Position numbers and translations under genes: made by a program. The notes beneath the pieces were generated by a model. The model worked only from the letters and a program-made list of their open reading frames with translations, was not told the DNA's origin and did no database searches. A stretch of 20,755 bases of DNA from a virus: positions 1 to 20,755 of the IMG/VR virus record IMGVR_UViG_3300030406_002194; one strand, written 5' to 3'. The stretch's first letter is position 1, and every line of letters starts with the position of its first letter. Positions 10,751 through 20,755 of this stretch are shown here, one piece after another.

Positions 10751-13700
10751 ATGGCAGAAAAAGAACCACCAAAAATTGAGTTTGACGTTCCGTCAGCTTT
10801 ATCTTCAGGCTATACAGCGTCTGACATTGCTAAATATTTAACAGAGCAATCTGGATTAGATTATGACGAAGCTATAAGAGGCGGTTATGATGATGACTCT
10901 TTAATTATGAATTTAGCTACAAAAGACGGAGAGGCCTACACGGATCCAAGTGCTTTCAAGGTATTTACAGAGTCAGCAGCTAAAGGTTTGATGCAATCGA
11001 TCCCTGCTTTTGAAGGCGGTAAGATGGGTTTTCAAATAGGTATGAAATTACCGGGGCCTTTAAAACTTCTAACACCTATAACAACTGCTGGCGGAGCTTT
11101 GTCTGGTTACGTTTTTGGAGATAACTTATCTGAGTTGTTTAATTTTGAAGATAATGTAGTGCCCAGTAAGATGCCTTATAAAGTTATGGGCGAAACTGCG
11201 GGTGGTGGTATGGGTTTTTTTCAGGCTCCATTTAGGGCAGCAGCAACCGTGCAACCCGGCACTTTTGCATGGATGAAACAAAATGCAAAAGATTTAGGAT
11301 CAAAACTTGACTCAACCTTTTTAGAGAAATTAGGATATTCGGCACAAAGGTTTCCGGGACTTACGCTTGCCATGGAGGGTACCAGCGTTGCTGGAGCTTC
11401 GGTTGCTGGTGCCTTATCAGAAGCAGCAAAACCCGGAGATAATTTTAATAGATTACTGTCTGAGCTTTTTGGCGGCACAGCTGGGCCTACAATACTAATG
11501 GGTTTTGCACCGGCTATATTTACAGGTGCTAAAAATTTAAGTAAATATTTTACAGCTGAAGGTAGAATGGATTTAGCTGGCACTCAACTGAAAAAAATAT
11601 TAGATGATGCCGGCGTTGATATAAACAAACTTCTTCAAACTATTGATGATGCAGATGATATGGGCATAGAAAATATGTCCACAGCGGCTGTGACTGGGGA
11701 GCAAGCTCTAACATCATTAAACAAAAAACTATTTAGTAATTATAAGTATTTTGAACCAGAGTTAGTTGGTCAACTTAGAAAAAATTTATCTGGCGCAGAA
11801 AAGCTGATAACTAAAATGGTTGGAACAAATGATCCAAACTTAATAGCAGATGCAGCTAAGATTAGAGATGAACTGTTTAAGGCTAAAATCACTTTACGTT
11901 TAGCAGATGCAAGGATAAAAGCTGAGAACATTATTGGTAAAATGGCTCCGGGTCCGGACACAGCTACTAAAGCGTCAAACACAATACAAGATTTAGTCTT
12001 CAAAGCTTTAGATGATGTAAGAGCAGAAGAAAAAAGATTATATCAACTTATACCCGGTGGCACAGAAATCACCGCCCCTGCGACACGAAAAACATTACAA
12101 CAAATTATTGGCAAAGAAATATTAGAGGGTGAGTTAAAAGAATTAGGGATTAAACCATCTGGTTTGCAGGTAATTAATAAAATATTAGGTGTAACAACAG
12201 AAGCACCCGGTTTTACAAAAAACTTTTTAAATGCAAGTGACAAAAATCAAAGAGGGTTTTTTTCAGTTGTTGGTTACTCACCAACGCCTTTAGTGGGAGT
12301 TAAGGAGCCTAGTGGAAAATGGCAAATCGATAAATCAATAATTGAAGGTGAGTATGATTTAAAAAGAGGTGCTCTAAACAATTTAACAATAGATGATTTA
12401 CGAAAAAACAATCTCTCTGCATTGGATAACGTATTCTTCCAAGAAACTGGCGAAGCTATACCTGAAAGTATAAGAAAAGATTTACTTAACGATTTATCAA
12501 GTAAGCATCTGAAATCTTTAAGAGAAGCTTCTTCATCCTTAACATTTAGGGGAAGTGCAGATAATAAAAGTTTAGGTAAATTAATTGACGAATACATTAA
12601 GGAATTTACTTCAAAACAACCTGAACAAGAAACTACATCTCTTCTTGACGAAAAGTTTTTATCTTTAAAAGAAATATTAAATTTAAGGTCACAACTTTTC
12701 TCTACAGCAAGAGCTAAATCAGCTTCGGGTGATACAAGAGACGCGGGTATAATTAACAAAATAGCAAATGCCATAACAGACGACATTGGGACTAAAGCTG
12801 ATGCTGGAGATGGCACAAGTGTAACAAATTTACTTAAACAGGCACATTCTTTTAGTAAATCCTTGAATGATACTTTCACAAGAGGCTTTCCAAACACAAT
12901 ATTAAAAAGACAAAAGTCTGGTAAGTTGAATGTAATTCCTGAGTTGGCTATAAATTCAATTTTTCAAGGTGGAGGAGACGCAGTAGCTTATAATTACAGC
13001 GGGATAGAAAGTGCAATTACTTTTTTACAAAAACAGTCTGGTAAAGAATTAGACGAGGCTCTTACTAACAAATTAGGTACATTGAAGGCATCACAGGAAG
13101 ACTTACTATATGTTATGTTTTCTGAAGTTGTAAACCAAGAAACTAAACGCGTCGATGGGGATAAACTTGCAAGGTTTATGAGTTATGCAAAAGGGGGCTA
13201 TGGCAAAGTTTTAGACCGCTTTCCTGATCTTAAAAATGATTTAAAAGATTTACAAACAGCACAAAACCTATATGACGCACGAAAACAATATTATGGCGAG
13301 GTGGTGCAAGGTATTTTAAAACCGGGTAATTTACAAGCAAAAAGACGATTAAAAAATGTATTCTCATTTGCCGACTTACTTCCCGCCGATACAAATCCGG
13401 GTTTTGTTATTTCAAACGCAATAGGTGAACCAAATAGAAGACCGGGAAACCCAGTAAATAATCTTAAAAGAATTATTGCTTTTGGTAAAAAAGCCGAAAA
13501 CCCTGATGTATTGGAAGGTATTAAAGAAACTATTTTTGATAGAGCGTTTCAATTTGCTCGTAATGAAAAAGACGTTATAGATTTTAAAGCTTTTAAAGAT
13601 TATTTAATTAAACCGATGGTAAAGGGACAGCCTAGTGTATTGGAGATATTGAGAAACACCGGTGTATTAAGTAGTGATGAAGCGTTGAGGTTTAGTCAAA

Positions 13701-15655
13701 TAACTAACAGGATGATTACAGCACAAAAAAGCATACCGGATGATGCTACAAAACCTATTGAGGGTCCTTTAGTATCAGGCGTCAATACCTTTGTTGATTT
13801 GTTTGCTAGATTAGTTGGTTCTAAAGTTGGTAGTATGTTAGCAAGTGTAATACCGGGTAGAGGTCAGGGTATAATTGAATCTGCTGCGGGTGTTAGAACT
13901 GTGATTGGTGGTTTAAACATACCAACCTCAATGACACAAGATTTATTATTGCAAGCTGCAAGAGATCCTAAATTTTTTAAATTGTTAGTTACAAGACCTA
14001 AAACAGAAAAAGAAGCTGTAGTTACAGCGAAAAGAGTTAGAGCTTACTTACTAAATGCTGGGCTTGGATTTGTATCAAGAGAATTAGATGATGACACAGA
14101 AGAATTTAAAAAAGGTGCACCGCCTTTACCACGACAGTTTGATCCAGATTTCATACCAGATAAACAGAGTTCGGTTAACTTGCCAAAAGAGGGGTTTCCC
14201 ACCACCCAAACGGCAACGGTACCACAAAGCGGGGTGAACGCCCGTCTCGCGGCTAATGTGGGCGCAGCCCCACAGGCCGCGCCTAATCTTAATCAGAGAC
14301 AGCAGTTCGCATCTTTGTTTCCTAATGATCCAATATCCGGATTGATAAATGCACAGCAGCCTCCAAGATTAATGGCTGAAGGCGGTGATGTACCTGATTT
14401 AAGAGAAGCACCAGAAGTTGATGATTTAAGAGCTCTTACTCTTGAAGAGTTTAAAGAGGCTACCCTAAAACATTTGCTTGAGCTACAAGATCAAAAAGAC
14501 AGAGCTTACGAAAAATATGTTGAACCAACAAAATACTCAATAATAGGACCTCTTTACGGAGGCCGCGGTCCACAAAACAATCCTATTTTTTTAAAGGAAG
14601 CTCAACAACTAGAACAAGAAATGCGAAACTTTGGTATAGATAGACAAAAAGCAATAGCTAATTATGAGGATGCTTTGCGAGAGGGCAAGATGGTAAGCAT
14701 GAGAAGTGCTAAAGATATTGAACAAGGCAATGTCATAATTAGGGGTTTTCCTGATTATTTAGTAAACCCTGTAAAAAACATGAGGCAAGGCGGAGCTGCT
14801 TATGACATGGGACTTGAAGGCGATCTCGCGGCTCAAGAGACAATACAAAGTGCTTTGGAGGGCGGGTCTGATAATAATGAAACACCACCATCTTTTAATT
14901 TTCGTAACGTACCCACTACAGTTAGCAGAGGTATATTAAGCCTCATGGATAAAATAAACATGGCTCCTGATATAACAGGCTTACAGGGTTTTGTAAGAAA
15001 TACACCTGTTGGAGTAACCGCACCTGTAGGTTTACAAACAAACATAGGGGGTTTTCCTGTAAGTTTTACACCAACTTTTAACAAAGGCGGTATTGGGTTT
15101 CTTGCTGAAACTACCTTCAAAGACGGTGGTGCGGTTGAGGATGAGTACGGTCAAGATGACGATATGGATTACACCGACGTAGATTATGGGTATATGAGCG
15201 ACGAAGATGGTTCTACAGATGATTTTGATATTGCAACAAATATTGGTAAAGCCACTGGTGGAACTTTAGTAGGTGAAATACCTTATGATCTTTTTAATTT
15301 AAGAGATCAAATGAATAAAAAAGCTTTAGAAACTTATAAACAAGGTCAAATACCTGACTATTTATATGATGACAAAGGTAACATAACCGCGGTAGGTGGC
15401 TTGGCTCCTCCCGGCTCTAGCTTCAGAGGCATACCAACAAATCCTGTCTCTGCAATAGCCATGTTAGGTAATATGATGGGAGCTCGTACCTACACAGGAT
15501 ATGATCCTTCTTTATATGCTGGTGGTGATCCTAACAGTGAAAATGGTGGCATAGCTAATTTACCAAGCGCGCCTGTTGACACAGCAGAAATAAGAAGAAG
15601 AGCCATAGATTTATACAACATGGACCCAAACAGATACAGATTATTCGGATCATAA
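10751..15655 (+). CDS. Large internal virion / ejection protein with C-terminal extension (1634 aa)
   Basis: AGGAAAT about ten bases before the ATG marks the start, five bases after the previous stop. Residues 10-55 contain a GYTASDIAKYL unit and a weaker second GGYDDDSL unit, a signature of very large internal proteins of podovirus-like phages ('GYS-x-x-EI-x-x-YL'). Gly/Ala-rich hydrophobic stretches at about 83-130, 205-225 and 240-262 could contact membrane. Residues 270-1120 are mainly helical and charged. Near 1180-1200 is QRQQFASLFPNDPISGLI, which I recall as lying close to the C-terminus of related proteins. Beyond it lie about 430 more residues with five Gly-Gly motifs and an acidic Asp/Tyr stretch at about 1463-1492. 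It probably forms or lines the DNA ejection conduit. No lytic transglycosylase motif was identified. Confidence 0.6.
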   Translation: MAEKEPPKIEFDVPSALSSGYTASDIAKYLTEQSGLDYDEAIRGGYDDDSLIMNLATKDGEAYTDPSAFKVFTESAAKGLMQSIPAFEGGKMGFQIGMKLPGPLKLLTPITTAGGALSGYVFGDNLSELFNFEDNVVPSKMPYKVMGETAGGGMGFFQAPFRAAATVQPGTFAWMKQNAKDLGSKLDSTFLEKLGYSAQRFPGLTLAMEGTSVAGASVAGALSEAAKPGDNFNRLLSELFGGTAGPTILMGFAPAIFTGAKNLSKYFTAEGRMDLAGTQLKKILDDAGVDINKLLQTIDDADDMGIENMSTAAVTGEQALTSLNKKLFSNYKYFEPELVGQLRKNLSGAEKLITKMVGTNDPNLIADAAKIRDELFKAKITLRLADARIKAENIIGKMAPGPDTATKASNTIQDLVFKALDDVRAEEKRLYQLIPGGTEITAPATRKTLQQIIGKEILEGELKELGIKPSGLQVINKILGVTTEAPGFTKNFLNASDKNQRGFFSVVGYSPTPLVGVKEPSGKWQIDKSIIEGEYDLKRGALNNLTIDDLRKNNLSALDNVFFQETGEAIPESIRKDLLNDLSSKHLKSLREASSSLTFRGSADNKSLGKLIDEYIKEFTSKQPEQETTSLLDEKFLSLKEILNLRSQLFSTARAKSASGDTRDAGIINKIANAITDDIGTKADAGDGTSVTNLLKQAHSFSKSLNDTFTRGFPNTILKRQKSGKLNVIPELAINSIFQGGGDAVAYNYSGIESAITFLQKQSGKELDEALTNKLGTLKASQEDLLYVMFSEVVNQETKRVDGDKLARFMSYAKGGYGKVLDRFPDLKNDLKDLQTAQNLYDARKQYYGEVVQGILKPGNLQAKRRLKNVFSFADLLPADTNPGFVISNAIGEPNRRPGNPVNNLKRIIAFGKKAENPDVLEGIKETIFDRAFQFARNEKDVIDFKAFKDYLIKPMVKGQPSVLEILRNTGVLSSDEALRFSQITNRMITAQKSIPDDATKPIEGPLVSGVNTFVDLFARLVGSKVGSMLASVIPGRGQGIIESAAGVRTVIGGLNIPTSMTQDLLLQAARDPKFFKLLVTRPKTEKEAVVTAKRVRAYLLNAGLGFVSRELDDDTEEFKKGAPPLPRQFDPDFIPDKQSSVNLPKEGFPTTQTATVPQSGVNARLAANVGAAPQAAPNLNQRQQFASLFPNDPISGLINAQQPPRLMAEGGDVPDLREAPEVDDLRALTLEEFKEATLKHLLELQDQKDRAYEKYVEPTKYSIIGPLYGGRGPQNNPIFLKEAQQLEQEMRNFGIDRQKAIANYEDALREGKMVSMRSAKDIEQGNVIIRGFPDYLVNPVKNMRQGGAAYDMGLEGDLAAQETIQSALEGGSDNNETPPSFNFRNVPTTVSRGILSLMDKINMAPDITGLQGFVRNTPVGVTAPVGLQTNIGGFPVSFTPTFNKGGIGFLAETTFKDGGAVEDEYGQDDDMDYTDVDYGYMSDEDGSTDDFDIATNIGKATGGTLVGEIPYDLFNLRDQMNKKALETYKQGQIPDYLYDDKGNITAVGGLAPPGSSFRGIPTNPVSAIAMLGNMMGARTYTGYDPSLYAGGDPNSENGGIANLPSAPVDTAEIRRRAIDLYNMDPNRYRLFGS
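14190..14280 (+). other. GC-rich linker patch inside the 1634-aa gene
   Basis: By direct count, 42 of the 60 bases at 14221-14280 are G or C, against 22 of 60 at 14041-14100 in the same gene. The patch encodes an extended Pro/Ala/Gln/Gly linker and uses codons such as GCC, GCG, CTC, GGG and CCC that are scarce nearby. It contains a hairpin with TGTGGG (14257-14262) pairing with CCCACA (14269-14274) across six bases. It lies just before the QFASLFPNDP motif. Confidence 0.75.
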
Positions 15656-15656
15656 G

Positions 15657-16100
15657 ATGCAACTTAGTAAAAACTTTACATTGCTTGAACTTACAAAAAG
15701 CCAGACCGCTGAACGTAAGGGTATAGACAATACACCTAACGCAGATCATATATATAACCTTACCGCACTAGCTGAAAACATTTTGCAGCCAATAAGAGAT
15801 GAGTGGGGCTCTTTTATTGTATCAAGCGGTTATCGTTCAGTAGCTTTGTGTGAGGCGATTGGCTCAAAATCAACTAGCCAACATGCAAAAGGCGAAGCAG
15901 CTGACTTTGAAGTAGCTGGTGTAGACAACTACAAATTAGCGTCTTGGATAGAAGCAAACTTACCCTTCGATCAGTTAATATTAGAGTGTTATACAGGTGG
16001 CAACACAGGCTGGATACACTGCTCATATGTCCCAGACGGACGTAAAGAAACACTCACCTATGACAGACAGAACGGCTACAGAAAAGGTTTGCTATCTTAA
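15657..16100 (+). CDS. Peptidase M15-type peptidoglycan hydrolase, probable endolysin (147 aa)
   Basis: The protein has the layout of the small D-Ala-D-Ala carboxypeptidase/endopeptidase family M15 (M15_3 type). It has an N-terminal FTLLELTKSQTA segment, SGYRS at 57-61, a zinc-site motif SQHAKGEAADF (His76, Asp83), a probable catalytic Glu110 in LILE, and the third zinc ligand His121 in GWIHCSY. All expected catalytic positions are present and the length is normal for a single-domain enzyme. It would cut peptide bonds in peptidoglycan. No signal peptide or membrane segment is visible, so release to the wall would need a holin, which I do not see. The start lies one base after the preceding stop with a weak GGAT upstream. 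Its position after the ejection genes also allows a role in entry. It converges with the helicase gene and overlaps it by nine bases. Confidence 0.88.
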   Translation: MQLSKNFTLLELTKSQTAERKGIDNTPNADHIYNLTALAENILQPIRDEWGSFIVSSGYRSVALCEAIGSKSTSQHAKGEAADFEVAGVDNYKLASWIEANLPFDQLILECYTGGNTGWIHCSYVPDGRKETLTYDRQNGYRKGLLS

Positions 16101-17534
16101 CCAGTTCTTAGTCTCTTCGTTCAACACTTGGTCAGCTAGATTTATCTTATTACGCAGAGCTTCTACTATTTTCTCGTCTATAGTATCCGGTGCAATCAAA
16201 TCGACGTAAGTCACTGATTTTTTTTGACCTATCCTATGCGCCCTGTCTTCAGACTGTAAACGGCTCTCCAAGTCATAGCTATTACTATAATATATGACAG
16301 TGCTTGCCTCGTTGAGTGTAATACCGTACCCACCAGTCTTGGGATGGCCAACAAAGAACCGCAACGGGCTGTCCGGATCTTCAAAGCGCTTTACAATATC
16401 TTGTCTGTCTTCTTGCTTAGTCGCACCATAATACGCGGCTACCGAATCAGCGCCATAAACTGCCGTAAGATTTTTTATTATCTCTTGTATACCATATACA
16501 TAGTTACACCATATAATAGCTTTGCCTGAGTTCTCTTCTACGACGTTCATCAGCTCAGTAATTCTGTTGTTATCAAGCACTTGCAAACGGCCTTCGTCGC
16601 TTTCAAGATAACCACAACATATCTGCTGTAGGCGCATGAGTTGTGTCAACACACTGGCTGTTGTCGCAAGCTCGCCACGCTCCAGCTGTGCTAGTGCGAA
16701 TCGCCGCATTTGCTCATAAATCGTAGTCTGCTCACTAGTCAAAGCAACATTTCTTTTCACATAAATCTTGTCAGGTAGATCCAAACAATCTTTTTTAAGT
16801 GTCCTAGCTGAAAACTGTGTCAATATACCATTTAACTCATCTAATCGTTTGTAGCCTACTATGTCATTGAAGCTACGGCTTCCAAAGGTTTTGCGCTGTA
16901 CAACAGCATATCTGTTTTGAAAAGCAAAATAACTAGCCTGACCAAGCGCCATAGGATCTAGGAAGCCGCACTGAGAAAACAAATCCATAGGCGATTTGGT
17001 TATGGGCGATCCTGTGAGTATTCGCTTATATTTAGCATATTTACTTACATCTATTATGTTCTTCGTTCTGTTAGCTTTTCTATTTTTAATAGTTGTGCTT
17101 TCATCTATAATCATTATGTTGTCTTCGTTCTTACGCAGAAAGTAATAAGCAGCTTTCTTACCACGCTCCGAGCTAAACGCTTCAATGTTCATAATAAGGA
17201 ACTTAACACCGGCCATCATCTCGAAGACAACCTTTTGCATATCGTCCTGAAACTTCTTAGCCTTGCTTGGTTGCCAACGCACCACGAACCTTTGTATCTC
17301 GTCAGGTAAGTGATTCGGTATCTCTTGTTTTACCCAGTTATCGTACACACCCTTGGGTGCAATAATCAGTGCAGAATCTATTTCGCCTTCTAATTTAAGC
17401 TTGCCAATCGTATCAATAATAACTTTTGATTTACCTAAACCCATCTCCATGAACAAGGCGTAGTATGGTCTTTTCCAACTGTCATCAATTATTTCTTCCT
17501 GATGCTTAAATGGTTTTGTCTTATATATATACAT
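16092..17534 (-). CDS. SNF2-like superfamily 2 DNA helicase / translocase (480 aa)
   Basis: All main SF2 motifs are visible: the Q-like KPFKHQ (7-11 region), Walker A MGLGKSK (31-37), motif Ia LIIAPKGVYDNW (56-67), motif II DEST (144-147), motif III LTGSPI (173-178), motif V GGYGITLNEA (401-410) and motif VI QSEDRAHRIGQ (427-437). Motif VI is typical of the SNF2/Rad54 branch. Motif II is DEST where many relatives have DEAH; the Asp-Glu pair needed for ATP hydrolysis is intact. The protein has just the two RecA-like lobes with no nuclease or extra DNA-binding domain. It is the only leftward gene, read from a CGGAGA ribosome site in the divergent control region. Beside primase and SSB genes, a role in phage DNA replication, recombination or remodelling is likely. 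The substrate is not evident. Confidence 0.9.
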   Translation of the reverse strand: MYIYKTKPFKHQEEIIDDSWKRPYYALFMEMGLGKSKVIIDTIGKLKLEGEIDSALIIAPKGVYDNWVKQEIPNHLPDEIQRFVVRWQPSKAKKFQDDMQKVVFEMMAGVKFLIMNIEAFSSERGKKAAYYFLRKNEDNIMIIDESTTIKNRKANRTKNIIDVSKYAKYKRILTGSPITKSPMDLFSQCGFLDPMALGQASYFAFQNRYAVVQRKTFGSRSFNDIVGYKRLDELNGILTQFSARTLKKDCLDLPDKIYVKRNVALTSEQTTIYEQMRRFALAQLERGELATTASVLTQLMRLQQICCGYLESDEGRLQVLDNNRITELMNVVEENSGKAIIWCNYVYGIQEIIKNLTAVYGADSVAAYYGATKQEDRQDIVKRFEDPDSPLRFFVGHPKTGGYGITLNEASTVIYYSNSYDLESRLQSEDRAHRIGQKKSVTYVDLIAPDTIDEKIVEALRNKINLADQVLNEETKNWLR

Positions 17535-17549
17535 TTTTTATCTCCGTGC

Positions 17550-17577
17550 TTGACATATAAGATAAACCTTTTATATT
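17550..17577 (+). promoter_or_regulatory. Predicted sigma70-type promoter, rightward (replication genes)
   Basis: A perfect -35 TTGACA (17550-17555) and -10 TATATT (17572-17577, five of six consensus bases) are separated by 16 bases. Transcription would begin near 17584, about 50 bases before the ATG at 17633, and would read the unknown protein, SSB and primase genes as one unit. It lies in the only sizeable non-coding gap of the window. Confidence 0.65.
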
Positions 17578-17587
17578 CTTATATCAA
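17559..17587 (-). promoter_or_regulatory. Predicted sigma70-type promoter, leftward (helicase)
   Basis: Read on the minus strand, -35 TTGATA (17587-17582, five of six) is followed after 17 bases by -10 TATCTT (17564-17559, four of six). The start would lie near 17552, leaving a leader of about 17 bases before the helicase ATG. It overlaps the rightward promoter almost completely. It is weaker by consensus than the rightward one. Confidence 0.45.
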
Positions 17588-17605
17588 GACAATAATAAAA
17601 GTCTT
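17586..17605. repeat. Small inverted repeat in the rightward leader
   Basis: AAGAC (17586-17590) and GTCTT (17601-17605) flank ten A/T-rich bases just downstream of the predicted rightward start. It could be an operator half-site pair or a weak leader hairpin. It is short, so chance occurrence is possible. Confidence 0.35.
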
Positions 17606-17621
17606 TAATCACGAAACACGG

Positions 17622-17629
17622 AAGGAGAT
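17622..17629 (+). promoter_or_regulatory. Strong ribosome binding site for the first replication gene
   Basis: AAGGAGAT lies three bases before the ATG at 17633 (about five from the GGAG core) and is among the best Shine-Dalgarno matches in the window. It fixes the start of the 189-residue protein and suggests high expression. Confidence 0.75.
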
Positions 17630-17632
17630 GGT

Positions 17633-18202
17633 ATGAGTGATTTAATGCAACAAGTAGAGGCTGATGCACAAAGCCTCGGCGATCTAAGTGATCTTTCTAC
17701 AGATAAACTTAGTAGCGTAGCTGAAACAGCTGAAAACATTAAGCAAAAAGAAGACGAAGTATTCCAGCTTGAGGAGAAACTCAAACAGGCTAAAAAAGAT
17801 CTGCTTAAAATGACAGATGAAGATTTGCCTATGTTAATGGAAGAGATTAATCTTGAAAGCTTTGCGTTATCAGATGGTTCAAAAATAAACATAACCCCTA
17901 CATATGGGGGCACAATCAAGGTTGATGATAGACCTGAAGCACATCAATGGCTTAGAGATAATGGTTTTGGAGATCTAATTAAGAACTCTATAGCCGCTGA
18001 GTTTGGTATGGGCGAAGATAATTTAGCTAAAGATTTTTATGAAACAGCTTTAGCTAAAGGTTTTAATGTTAATCAAAAAGAACAGATCCATAACATGACA
18101 CTACGTTCTTGGGTAAAAGAACAGACAGAGGCGGGTAATTCTATCCCGGCTGTGTTTGGTGCATGGACAGGTCGAAGAGCTAAAATCACGAGGAGTAAAT
18201 AA
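17633..18202 (+). CDS. Conserved phage protein of unknown function, coiled-coil N-terminus (189 aa)
   Basis: This is the first gene of the rightward replication unit, with a strong ribosome binding site. Residues 27-62 form a charged coiled coil (ETAENIKQKEDEVFQLEEKL region). Then comes a conserved LPMLMEEI turn at 66-72, a short beta region at 75-97 (FALSDGSKINITPTYGG), and a helical C-terminal half with WLRDNGFGDLIKN (106-118), TLRSWVKEQ (156-164) and IPAVFGA (171-177). I recall this pattern from many marine phage genomes, always without a function. It overlaps the SSB-like gene by one base, which suggests linked expression and a role in DNA replication or recombination. A Gam-like nuclease inhibitor was considered because of the coiled coil, but nothing specific supports it. 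Confidence 0.75.
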   Translation: MSDLMQQVEADAQSLGDLSDLSTDKLSSVAETAENIKQKEDEVFQLEEKLKQAKKDLLKMTDEDLPMLMEEINLESFALSDGSKINITPTYGGTIKVDDRPEAHQWLRDNGFGDLIKNSIAAEFGMGEDNLAKDFYETALAKGFNVNQKEQIHNMTLRSWVKEQTEAGNSIPAVFGAWTGRRAKITRSK

Positions 18203-19032
18203 TGTCGAATGTAGCTAAAAAGAAACCGGCAGAGATTGTTGGTATAGATCAATCAATATTTGAGAATGACTCAGGTCTTGGTAATTCAGAGATAGATCAG
18301 GATGTACTTGGTATTCCTTTTCTAAAAACAAATTTAACACCTGCCGTATTAGATGCCAATAGAGGTGCATTGAAAGGCGATATGTTAAACACTGTAACTG
18401 GTGAAATATACAATGGAACAGAAGGTGTTCTTGTAATACCGTGTCACTTCCAAAGACGTTTCATTCACTGGTCAGCATTAGGTGACGATCAAAAAGCACC
18501 GATTGCTATTTATGACAAAGCCTCTGACTGTCCTAAAACAGACAGGATAAAGAAAGATCAAGGCGATAATAAAGATTATCTACTTGATGGTTCTGGTCAC
18601 TACATTGAAGAGACACATCAACATTATGTGCTTGTCTGCAAAGAAGATGGATCTACAGACGCTGTAATGATAGCAATGAAAAGCACATCACTGAAGAAAA
18701 GCCGTCAGTGGAATATGTTAATTCAAACTAGACGTAAGCAAAGAGCTGATGGTTCTACTTTTCAACCACCAAGGTTTTTATATCTTTACAGATTAAGCAC
18801 CGTTATGGAGAGCAATGCTAAGGCGAGCTATGCTGTGTGGGAAGCCAAGTTAGAAAAAGAATTATCTAACATAAATGTCTACAACGAAGCTAAAGCTTTT
18901 GCCATGTCTATAGAGAAGGGAGCTGTCGAAGTTAAGCACGAACAAGACAAAGAAGACGCTCCAGTAGCTGAACCGCAAGCCAAAACTCAGCCACCGGCTG
19001 ATGAGCCATTGCAGAAAGATATACCGTTCTAG
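18202..19032 (+). CDS. Probable single-stranded-DNA-binding protein (276 aa)
   Basis: The ATG overlaps the previous stop (TAATG) and follows AGGAG. The core, residues about 34-238, starts with LGIPFLKTN and continues with KGDMLNTVTGEIYNG, FIHW (87-90), a THQHYVLV strand (138-145) and a lysine/arginine-rich MKSTSLKKSRQWNML segment (159-173). This resembles a phage ssDNA-binding family I know by pattern, presumably an OB-type fold. Residues 240-270 are a flexible Glu/Pro/Ala/Gln linker, and the chain ends QKDIPF. A disordered linker followed by Asp-(Asp)-Ile-Pro-Phe is the hallmark of bacterial SSB tails that bind partner proteins. It would coat ssDNA during phage replication beside the primase and helicase. 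The fold is inferred; the tail is directly visible. Confidence 0.7.
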   Translation: MSNVAKKKPAEIVGIDQSIFENDSGLGNSEIDQDVLGIPFLKTNLTPAVLDANRGALKGDMLNTVTGEIYNGTEGVLVIPCHFQRRFIHWSALGDDQKAPIAIYDKASDCPKTDRIKKDQGDNKDYLLDGSGHYIEETHQHYVLVCKEDGSTDAVMIAMKSTSLKKSRQWNMLIQTRRKQRADGSTFQPPRFLYLYRLSTVMESNAKASYAVWEAKLEKELSNINVYNEAKAFAMSIEKGAVEVKHEQDKEDAPVAEPQAKTQPPADEPLQKDIPF

Positions 19033-19034
19033 TC

Positions 19035-20567
19035 ATGTGGGAAACTTTTAGTTCCATATTTGATGGACTGGAAGAAGCCTTTGGAACCTACAAGATAGAT
19101 AAGACCCAGACCAATGGTAAGAAGTCTGGTAGAGCGTCCCTAGTAAGGGAACCACGGACCAAGGATCATTGGTTGGGTCATCTGTCAGGTCAAGGCGACT
19201 CTCTCGGTATCATCCCGATCAACGCCAACTCACAATGTAAGTGGGGGTGCATAGATATTGATATGTATCCTTTGGATCACAAAGTGTTAGTGCAGAAGAT
19301 CAGAAAGATGAAACTACCTCTGGTTGTGTGTAGATCAAAGAGCGGTGGCGCACATTGCTTCTTGTTCTGCATGGACTGGATTGATGCCAAAGATATGCAA
19401 CAGACACTACAACATATATCTGCATCGCTTGGCTACGGCCAAAGCGAGATATTCCCAAAACAGATAAAACTACACCTCGATAGAGGAGACGTAGGTAATT
19501 TTCTTAACTTACCGTATTACGACGCTGAAGGCGGTCTCAGGTACGGTATTAATGACGATGGCACTTCTGCTACCCTAGAAGAGTTTATAGCGCTGTACGA
19601 GCAATATAAGCAGACTATTGAACAGATTGTATCGCTACAGATAGAAGAAACGCCTGACACAACAATAAAAGACGGACCACCATGCTTACAGACGCTATGT
19701 GCTGGTAAGATAAGTGAGGGTGGACGCAACAACGGATTATTTAATATCGCAGTGTATCTGCGTAAAGCATACCCAGACAGCTGGGAGACAGAGATACTTA
19801 CATACAACATGACATTCTTAGACCCACCGCTACCTTTATCAGAGGTTAACATAGTGGCTAACCAAGCTAAGAAGAAGGATTACGCCTACAAATGCAACGA
19901 TGCACCAATCAATGCACACTGTAACAAAGAGTTGTGCCGAACTAGGATGCACGGCGTAGGATCAGCCGTACAAGGCGCAACCATAGCTAACCTTAGAAAG
20001 TACAACTCCATACCACCTGTGTGGTTCATGGATGTAAGTGGAGAGCCCTTGGAGCTCGATACAGAAGCGCTTCTATCACAGCCTACATTTCAGAAGGCTT
20101 GTCTTGAACAGCTGAACTTCATGCCAAGAACAGTAAGCAAGCAAGTGTGGGAGGCTCGTATTGGTGCGTTGATGACAGAGATGAAAGAAAATGAAGCAGC
20201 AATCATAGAAGTTGCAGAAGATGCAAGCACCAGTGGTCAGTTCTATGATTATCTAGAAGAGTTCTGTAGTCATCTACAGCAAGCTCAAGAAAAAGAAGAG
20301 ATATTGTTAAGACGGCCTTGGACAGACGAAGAGGCTAACTTAACCTACTTTAGACTTCGTGATTTTGAGAACTTTCTCAAGAAGAATAAGTTCTTTGATT
20401 ACAAGTCACACAAGATTGCCCAGCGCTTACGGGATATAAATGGGTCCAGTTTGGTTATGAAAATAAGTAACCGTTCCGTTCGCGTTTGGGCAATACCATC
20501 ATACCATAACATGGATCATCAATTTAATACACCTGATATGGGTCCAAAAGAAAAGGAGCCCTTTTAA
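19035..20567 (+). CDS. Archaeo-eukaryotic-type DNA primase with Cys cluster and winged-helix-like C-terminus (510 aa)
   Basis: The AEP catalytic motifs are visible: CIDID with Asp74 and Asp76 as metal ligands, RSKSGGAH ending in His107, and GNFLNLPYY at 154-162. A second domain at about 213-310 has PPCLQTL, GGRNNGLFNIAVYL, a PPLPLSEV segment and four spaced cysteines (Cys217, 287, 296, 301), a likely zinc or iron-sulphur site reminiscent of PriL-type or PriCT regions. Residues about 415-490 (RRPWTDEEA, YFRLRDFENFL, KIAQRLRDI, VRVWAIP) look like a winged-helix DNA-binding domain. It should make primers for phage replication, possibly with polymerase activity. The start is two bases after the SSB stop with no good ribosome site, so coupling is likely. 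Replicative helicase motifs are absent, so unwinding must be supplied by another protein. Confidence 0.82.
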   Translation: MWETFSSIFDGLEEAFGTYKIDKTQTNGKKSGRASLVREPRTKDHWLGHLSGQGDSLGIIPINANSQCKWGCIDIDMYPLDHKVLVQKIRKMKLPLVVCRSKSGGAHCFLFCMDWIDAKDMQQTLQHISASLGYGQSEIFPKQIKLHLDRGDVGNFLNLPYYDAEGGLRYGINDDGTSATLEEFIALYEQYKQTIEQIVSLQIEETPDTTIKDGPPCLQTLCAGKISEGGRNNGLFNIAVYLRKAYPDSWETEILTYNMTFLDPPLPLSEVNIVANQAKKKDYAYKCNDAPINAHCNKELCRTRMHGVGSAVQGATIANLRKYNSIPPVWFMDVSGEPLELDTEALLSQPTFQKACLEQLNFMPRTVSKQVWEARIGALMTEMKENEAAIIEVAEDASTSGQFYDYLEEFCSHLQQAQEKEEILLRRPWTDEEANLTYFRLRDFENFLKKNKFFDYKSHKIAQRLRDINGSSLVMKISNRSVRVWAIPSYHNMDHQFNTPDMGPKEKEPF

Positions 20568-20755
20568 TGGTTAAGATGTTTGTTTTAATCTGTGTTGTAT
20601 GGGTAGAAGGCAGTCGCCATGATGGTGGAGAGCAGAAGTGTATTATGCACCAAAGTCAGGTGTATTATGCAAACATGGATCAATGTCGTGCCGATATACC
20701 TAAAAGTAAATTTTTAATTGAAAACGGCATTTTTGATAATTTTGGCGAAGAGCCA
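20567..20755 (+). CDS. Small protein with hydrophobic N-terminus, cut by window end (63 aa seen)
   Basis: ATG overlaps the primase stop by one base (TAATG), and GGAG at 20555-20558 stands eight bases upstream, so the start is well supported. The frame stays open to the last base. Residues 4-13 (MFVLICVVWV) are hydrophobic and could be a short signal peptide or membrane anchor. The following part has two cysteines (25 and 40) and charged residues, as in small exported phage proteins. I do not recognise a family. Co-expression with the primase follows from the overlap, but that does not show a replication role. Confidence 0.65.
   Translation, partial: MVKMFVLICVVWVEGSRHDGGEQKCIMHQSQVYYANMDQCRADIPKSKFLIENGIFDNFGEEP

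Follow-up and report, generated by a model that had tools for sequence, protein, structure and literature searches.

Genes and opposed promoters of the gap

The window (the whole stretch of DNA analysed, a virus record of 20,755 bases) contains a 98-bp gap between oppositely directed genes, in which the finding described here is located. A helicase gene is read leftwards from the gap, while three further genes are read rightwards:

16092..17534, minus strand: SNF2-like superfamily II helicase (phrog_62, SNF2-rel_dom, Helicase_C)
17540..17545, minus strand: ribosome-binding site of the leftward gene, GGAGAT on the minus strand, found by eye
17622..17629, plus strand: ribosome-binding site of the rightward gene, AAGGAGAT, found by eye
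17633..18202, plus strand: Pam3 gp33-like protein, DUF7307 (PF23984, phrog_2378)
18202..19032, plus strand: Pam3 gp34-like protein, Pam3_Gp34 (PF23977, phrog_2402)
19035..20567, plus strand: AEP-type primase (AEP-TOTE, PriCT_1, phrog_21866)

The 'SSB' that the initial annotation named in the rightward unit was not recovered, as the rightward genes match DUF7307 (gp33-like), Pam3_Gp34 and AEP primase instead. None of the gp33-like relatives listed carries an SSB label; one is annotated as a DNA-ends protecting protein, one as a host-nuclease inhibitor protein and most as hypothetical.

The phages concerned are uncultured and distantly related to Pelagibacter phage HTVC023P. A DNA search of a phage collection with the locus gave three partial matches. 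A helicase scan of viral contigs yielded 27 loci, from which L027 was left out because only the end of the helicase gene is present. The comparison set of 27 sequences consists of the window and 26 relatives holding the gap, and is divided into group A (n = 8, including the window), group B (n = 8) and group C (n = 11). Two opposed sets of promoter hexamers are found in the gap:

17550..17555, plus strand: rightward -35, TTGACA, present in every one of the 27 gaps
17572..17577, plus strand: rightward -10, TATATT, after a 16-base spacer; TAnnnT at 16-18 bases only in groups A and B (16 of 27)
17587-17582, minus strand: leftward -35, TTGATA (TTGCAT in groups B and C), from promoter scan and gap comparison
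17564-17559, minus strand: leftward -10, TATCTT, after a 17-base spacer; TAnnnT at 17-18 bases in 27 of 27

The hexamers, spacers and coordinates of both promoters given in the initial annotation match the sequence and the scan exactly. Both promoters share the 38 bases from 17550 to 17587. The predicted starts, about 7 bases past each -10, are at approximately 17584 (rightward) and 17552 (leftward), i.e. about 32 bp apart, and each falls within the opposing -35, which confirms the full overlap that had been claimed. Since the face-to-face promoters occupy the same 38 bases, only one polymerase should be seated at a time, and the mutual exclusion proposed earlier is thus supported on steric grounds, provided that both motifs are active, as we infer from their sequence.

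The rightward promoter scores 11/12 and ranks top among 20 promoter-like sites in 10755-20755, while the leftward promoter scores 9/12 in the same scan. Shuffled sequences of this 10 kb region contain 25.4 such sites, so a lone 9/12 match is not unusual. An overlapping opposed pair with scores of at least 11 and at least 9 was observed in 1 of 5000 dinucleotide shuffles of the gap and in none of 100 shuffles of the whole window, and a pair with both scores of at least 9 in 41 of 5000 gap shuffles. Simple chance as the origin of the pair is ruled out by the gap and window shuffles.

The best ungapped inverted repeat in the gap spans the same region:

17555..17584, no strand: inverted repeat without gaps, ATATAAGA/TCTTATAT, arms of 8 bp separated by 14 bp

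Its arms (17555-17562 and 17577-17584) pair in 8 of 8 positions. The 12-of-14 inverted repeat noted before is real, but requires a 2-base bulge (CTTGA(CA)TATAAGA / TCTTATATCAAG). When the gaps of the relatives were aligned, groups B and C turned out not to keep the symmetry with the -35 boxes in its arms. The 14-base palindrome was rejected as a conserved element on both counts, its ungapped arms being only 8 bp long and not kept in these two groups.

Conservation of promoters and rightward leader

Between groups, the helicase proteins are 75-82% identical and the third codon positions of the gene 47-53%. Against this background, TTGACA with its flank is identical in 7 of 7 positions, and the hexamer itself is unchanged even where the flank has diverged in group B. 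In group C, the middle three letters of the leftward -10 vary (GGA, TTG, TGA, CAA, GAA), with TA and T constant. The rightward -10 is TATATT at 16 bases in group A and TATCTT at 17 in group B, whereas a rightward TAnnnT at 16-18 bp is absent from all 11 group C sequences. The best candidate at 16-18 in this group is ATTTAT (3/6) in eight sequences, which also have TATTAT at 21, and ATTAAT (4/6) at 18 in the remaining three. The outer ends of the -35 boxes span 38 bp in group A, 40 bp in B and 43 bp in C.

Whether relatives keep both hexamer pairs can hence be answered in part: all 27 gaps retain both -35 boxes and the leftward -10, but only 16 of them the rightward -10. The retained boxes on the one hand and the TAnnnT missing from group C on the other hand show that the opposed arrangement is conserved across the groups, while the rightward promoter is uncertain in group C.

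Downstream of the promoters, the rightward leader CAAGnC ... GnCTTTAAYCACGAA (window 17585-17615) is identical between groups in 26-27 of 31-32 positions, a value above that of the operator array described below. Two features were recognised in it:

17586..17605, plus strand: possible stem AAGAC/GTCTT in the leader, close to where the rightward mRNA is predicted to begin, from sequence comparison
17604..17615, plus strand: conserved leader stretch TTTAATCACGAA, in most relatives TTTAAYCACGAA

The stem reads AAGTC/GACTT in group B, and some sequences of group C have one G-U pair in it. In 12 sequences, 60 of 60 cells pair, with one compensatory pair, a result equalled by 34 of 500 shuffles. The leader of the window folds no better than its shuffles and does not adopt the AAGAC/GTCTT pairing; the stem does form in the tested leaders of groups B and C (z -0.19 and -1.70). 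By comparison of the sequences, a weak stem may be present at the 5' end of the leader, with TTTAAYCACGAA after it. The TCTTTAAYCA within the leader may resemble a boxA antitermination site of the rrn type, a likeness that is weaker in group B.

A known structured RNA was not found in the leader, as the window gave no Rfam match at the gathering threshold; a mir-218 hit in 17500-17700 (E 0.68 at a lax threshold) was dismissed as a chance hit. The leader is not a repeated element either: its pattern recovered the gap in five of six records and elsewhere only hits with three mismatches. The gap it missed is that of G005, the leader of which differs. As a separate observation, TTTAATCACGAAA, as present in the conserved leader, recurs at L055 421-435 (G001 36720-36734), shortly before a terminator-like hairpin.

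Half-site array and a candidate RHH-like reader

Between the two -35 boxes, the following array was found at the level of motifs:

17556..17563, plus strand: half-site 1, TATAAGAT, 6 of 6 informative positions
17566..17573, minus strand: half-site 2, ACCTTTTA on the plus strand, 4 of 6 compared to ATCnnATA
17576..17583, minus strand: half-site 3, TTCTTATA on the plus strand, 5 of 6, with the same 8 bases in group B
17556..17583, no strand: array of the three half-sites at 10-bp steps, 15/18

The step of 10 bp corresponds to about one half-site per helical turn. This array is the only one of at least 15/18 in the window, with 0.2 expected from shuffles.

Two facing half-sites ATCnnATA make up a palindrome, TATNNGATWWATCNNATA (14 informative positions), which recurs at other promoters of the relatives G001, G002 and G005 (58-60 kb). 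At 13/14 or better, 11 sites were detected (5, 3 and 3, respectively), compared to 0.05-0.2 per record in shuffles. Judged by a rough gene caller, eight of them are wholly noncoding; the other three overlap ORFs made by the caller and lie directly before a ribosome site and start codon. Read backwards, the pattern gave 0-2 hits per record and strand. Four control phages yielded seven sites in two records, and the three inspected fall within annotated genes or at their start. In the window, the sole 13/14 hit (8734) lies inside a gene and the gap copy reaches 12/14. Of 16 further records, 15 have a gap copy with at most two mismatches; the one without it is G019, the source of L027, where only the end of the helicase gene is present. 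The view that a regulator reads the palindrome of the gap thus stands insofar as a repeated regulator-like site lies between the promoters, but the shared feature is the half-site array and not the palindrome as originally drawn.

Arrays of at least 15/18 at 10-bp steps number 15 in G001, 12 in G002 and 5 in G005, with overlapping registers counted, compared to 0.3-0.4 in shuffles; the 10-bp step of two half-sites is built into these counts because half-site and step were defined from the same genomes, and promoters are naturally enriched for the half-site because ATCnnATA resembles a -10 sequence. One 15/18 array of G001 (32783) lies inside a gene.

The gap array reads TATAAGAT-aa-ACCTTTTA-ta-TTCTTATA in group A, TATATTAT-at-AACGCATA-tc-TTCTTATA in group B (with TATAGTAT as last half-site in L013) and TATGTAAT-nn-TATGCGAT-tw-ATTATATT in group C, where L016 and L018 start with TATATTAC. 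The changes in group C mainly concern the 2-bp linkers and half-site 1. For eight of ten distinct cores, the score is reached in 2-6 of 3000 mononucleotide shuffles. The cores of L016 and L018 are reached in 32-33 of 3000 and score higher with a 9-bp step; in four further group C cores both steps tie, and overall the 9-bp step scores at least as high as the 10-bp step in six of seven group C core types. The aligned array core is identical between groups in 15-22 of 30 positions, which is no clear excess over third codon positions.

A candidate reader is a protein of 65-69 amino acids beginning with MDTxKWKS[VI]LVP, encoded downstream of the DNA polymerase in relatives. It matches Pfam RHH_5 with E values of 2.2e-5 and 6.8e-5 (24.5 and 23 bits, below the 26-bit cut-off), and the L137 protein matches phrog_11622, a transcriptional regulator (E 1.7e-4). 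The predicted model (mean pLDDT 82.3) has helices at 13-26 and 30-63, corresponding to the two of an RHH fold, and no strand in the monomer. Its nearest PDB folds are mostly RHH proteins such as Arc, CopG, AmrZ and PutA; the Foldseek E values of at least 0.38 and Z scores of up to 7.6 are weak for a short chain, and the latter may reflect only a common arrangement. No match was found in the annotated phage collection at E 0.01.

The gene is present in seven of seven group records searched, and going by the best 80 matches listed, at least 12 of the 27 helicase-scan contigs carry it. Its presence in the phage of the window is inferred from these relatives, because the window stops before its expected place. 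At E 0.001, no RHH match was obtained in three of the four control phages, among them 023Pt. The fourth, HTVC023P, has a weak match (E 1.9e-4), namely gp13 (MN698239.1 8538-8759), annotated as hypothetical. The gap of 023Pt keeps opposed TTGACA...TGTCAA boxes face to face and has no array (P 0.92); a convincing gap array was likewise not found in HTVC023P (P 0.17) or DSL-LC04 (P 0.9965).

The promoter of the RHH-like gene itself carries three direct half-sites at 10-bp steps. Array scores are 17/18 in group A relatives, 16-17 in B-like and 14-16 in C-like sequences, and 13-15/18 in more distant relatives among the matches listed. In G001, this promoter holds the highest array of the record (17/18), compared to which the gap arrays are weaker (14-15/18). 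Fifteen RHH-like genes were picked by hand; they are non-independent, and seven stem from the groups of this gap or are close to them. An upstream array with a shuffle P of at most 0.013 was observed in 12 of these, the exceptions being L135 (P 0.053) and the distant L170 and L171, which show nothing; the 10-bp step is uniquely best in nine of the 15. On L168, a contig of another genome, the array reads CTCTTATA-ta-ATCCCATA-aa-ATCTGATA (17/18). Among random 85-bp windows of the RHH loci, 26 of 1080 reach at least 15, some of them overlapping true sites. The upstream arrays tie the RHH family to the half-site better than co-occurrence alone. An RHH-like gene with a promoter of the group C type was also seen on L166, a contig binned as a Rhodobacteraceae genome, which is either a hint at the host or a binning error.

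Proposed control of the gap and alternative readings

Taken together, we consider it fairly probable that the face-to-face promoters of the gap overlap a central operator read by an RHH repressor of the phage, which would also regulate its own gene and probably shuts both directions together. The 98 bp would then form a compact control point for phage replication genes, from which host-type RNA polymerase would start either leftwards (helicase) or rightwards (gp33-like protein, gp34-like protein and primase). The RHH-like protein, as the most likely reader, would bind the half-sites side by side and may repress its own gene, the other promoters with half-sites and both gap promoters. Once enough of it is present, the helicase and the replication operon would be turned down together. 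As the array extends over both promoters, a protein bound to it would be expected to block them jointly instead of selecting one direction.

Overlapping promoters that face each other and share an operator are already known. In the bio operator (bioA/bioBFCD, BirA) and the bipolar argECBH operator (ArgR) of E. coli, such promoters overlap a central operator, and one repressor controls both directions. The gap resembles these systems in its two opposed promoters of the sigma-70 type, which as judged from their motifs share the same DNA, and in the operator motif between the -35 boxes. It differs in the genes controlled, which serve phage replication and not host biosynthesis, and in its array of three half-sites with a probable RHH reader, whereas BirA and ArgR are unrelated repressors that have small-molecule ligands. 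RHH repressors such as P22 Arc, CopG, MetJ, AmrZ and the plasmid omega repressor bind short sites side by side and regulate their own genes. The candidate is similar in its small size and in the half-sites at its own promoter, and may share their beta-alpha-alpha type fold, side-by-side binding and autoregulation. Unlike the named repressors, the MDTxKWKS[VI]LVP family stays below the cut-off for any named regulator family and would use ATCnnATA at 10-bp steps. A keyword literature search, from which no wider absence is claimed, found no description of such an RHH regulon, and the promoter-operator arrangement of this phage group is new to our searches.

Bidirectional promoters as described by Warman, Grainger and colleagues share or reciprocally overlap one -10 element, with starts 7-25 bp apart and 18 bp as the commonest distance (PMC10268837). 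The gap shares with them the divergent transcription (here predicted) from one short stretch and the exclusion of polymerases. However, its -10 boxes (17559-17564 and 17572-17577) do not overlap and its predicted starts are about 32 bp apart, so it falls outside the strict published definition of a bidirectional promoter.

Polymerase competition alone could balance the helicase against the replication operon, with the AT-rich half-sites being mere promoter DNA. The conservation of both -35 boxes and the leftward -10 fits such simple exclusion, as do the opposed TTGACA boxes of 023Pt, which lack an array, and the mutually exclusive binding of opposing polymerases to bidirectional promoters stated in PMC12825309. 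According to the same source, though, the five E. coli promoters tested there were too weakly transcribed at the basal level for polymerases to compete, and competition was seen once one direction had been activated. Since the array is also the best of the window and its half-site motif recurs at other promoters and upstream of the RHH-like gene, we regard exclusion alone as unlikely. It is more doubtful still that the operator is real but read by another host or phage protein, with the RHH-like gene merely a target. The promoter of the RHH-like gene might simply belong to a larger regulon, and another regulator could hide in G001 because 16 of its 27 scanned proteins have no Pfam match. These 27 proteins (of 79 called ORFs) include no regulator family at the Pfam cut-off, with only weak zinc-ribbon and other sub-threshold hits, and both the top array of G001 at the RHH promoter and the arrays directly upstream of diverged RHH-like genes, including that of L168, argue for the RHH-like protein itself.

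There is also little to recommend the view that only the leftward (helicase) promoter is real and that the rightward one is vestigial or starts elsewhere, with TTGACA kept for another reason. It would account for the lack of a well-spaced rightward -10 in group C compared to the leftward TAnnnT in 27 of 27. In contrast, the rightward site of the window is the best of the scan (11/12), TTGACA is constant in 27 of 27 gaps despite the diverged flank in group B, and the rightward leader is strongly conserved. An alternation of directions, as proposed in the initial annotation, is conceivable. A repressor-dosed switch, in which graded filling of the three helically phased half-sites blocks one promoter and then both, is improbable; the gap would pass from one direction to the other and then off as RHH protein accumulates. 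In this improbable reading, the RHH protein might even act as an activator in eight of the 11 group C sequences, where the array lies in a 21-bp spacer between TTGACA and TATTAT, the nearest good rightward -10, and bending of this spacer would switch on the rightward promoter.

With a shared operator and an RHH-like repressor as the favoured reading, a lone motif sighting becomes a testable regulon consisting of a very small RHH-like protein, a single half-site motif and a few promoters. Should this prove correct, it would reveal the way in which these phages time their replication genes and provide a natural case of a repressor array between two mutually exclusive promoters.

Some operator sites elsewhere in the relatives have unusual surroundings. 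Inspection by eye showed promoter-like stretches with an operator that run directly into a terminator-like hairpin and a T run at L058 13918-13990 (G001 33918), in L061 from 13324 (G002) and in L065 at about 18692 on the other strand (G005). It is as if the product of these three stretches were no more than a very short RNA, or as if they acted as decoys. Further operator sites at L058 17233 (G001 37233), L061 17609 (G002 37609) and L065 15830 (G005 55830) precede one gene, which starts just past GGGGCCCCT or GGGACCCCT without an ordinary ribosome-binding site, and the G001 version of which matches Terminase_6C.
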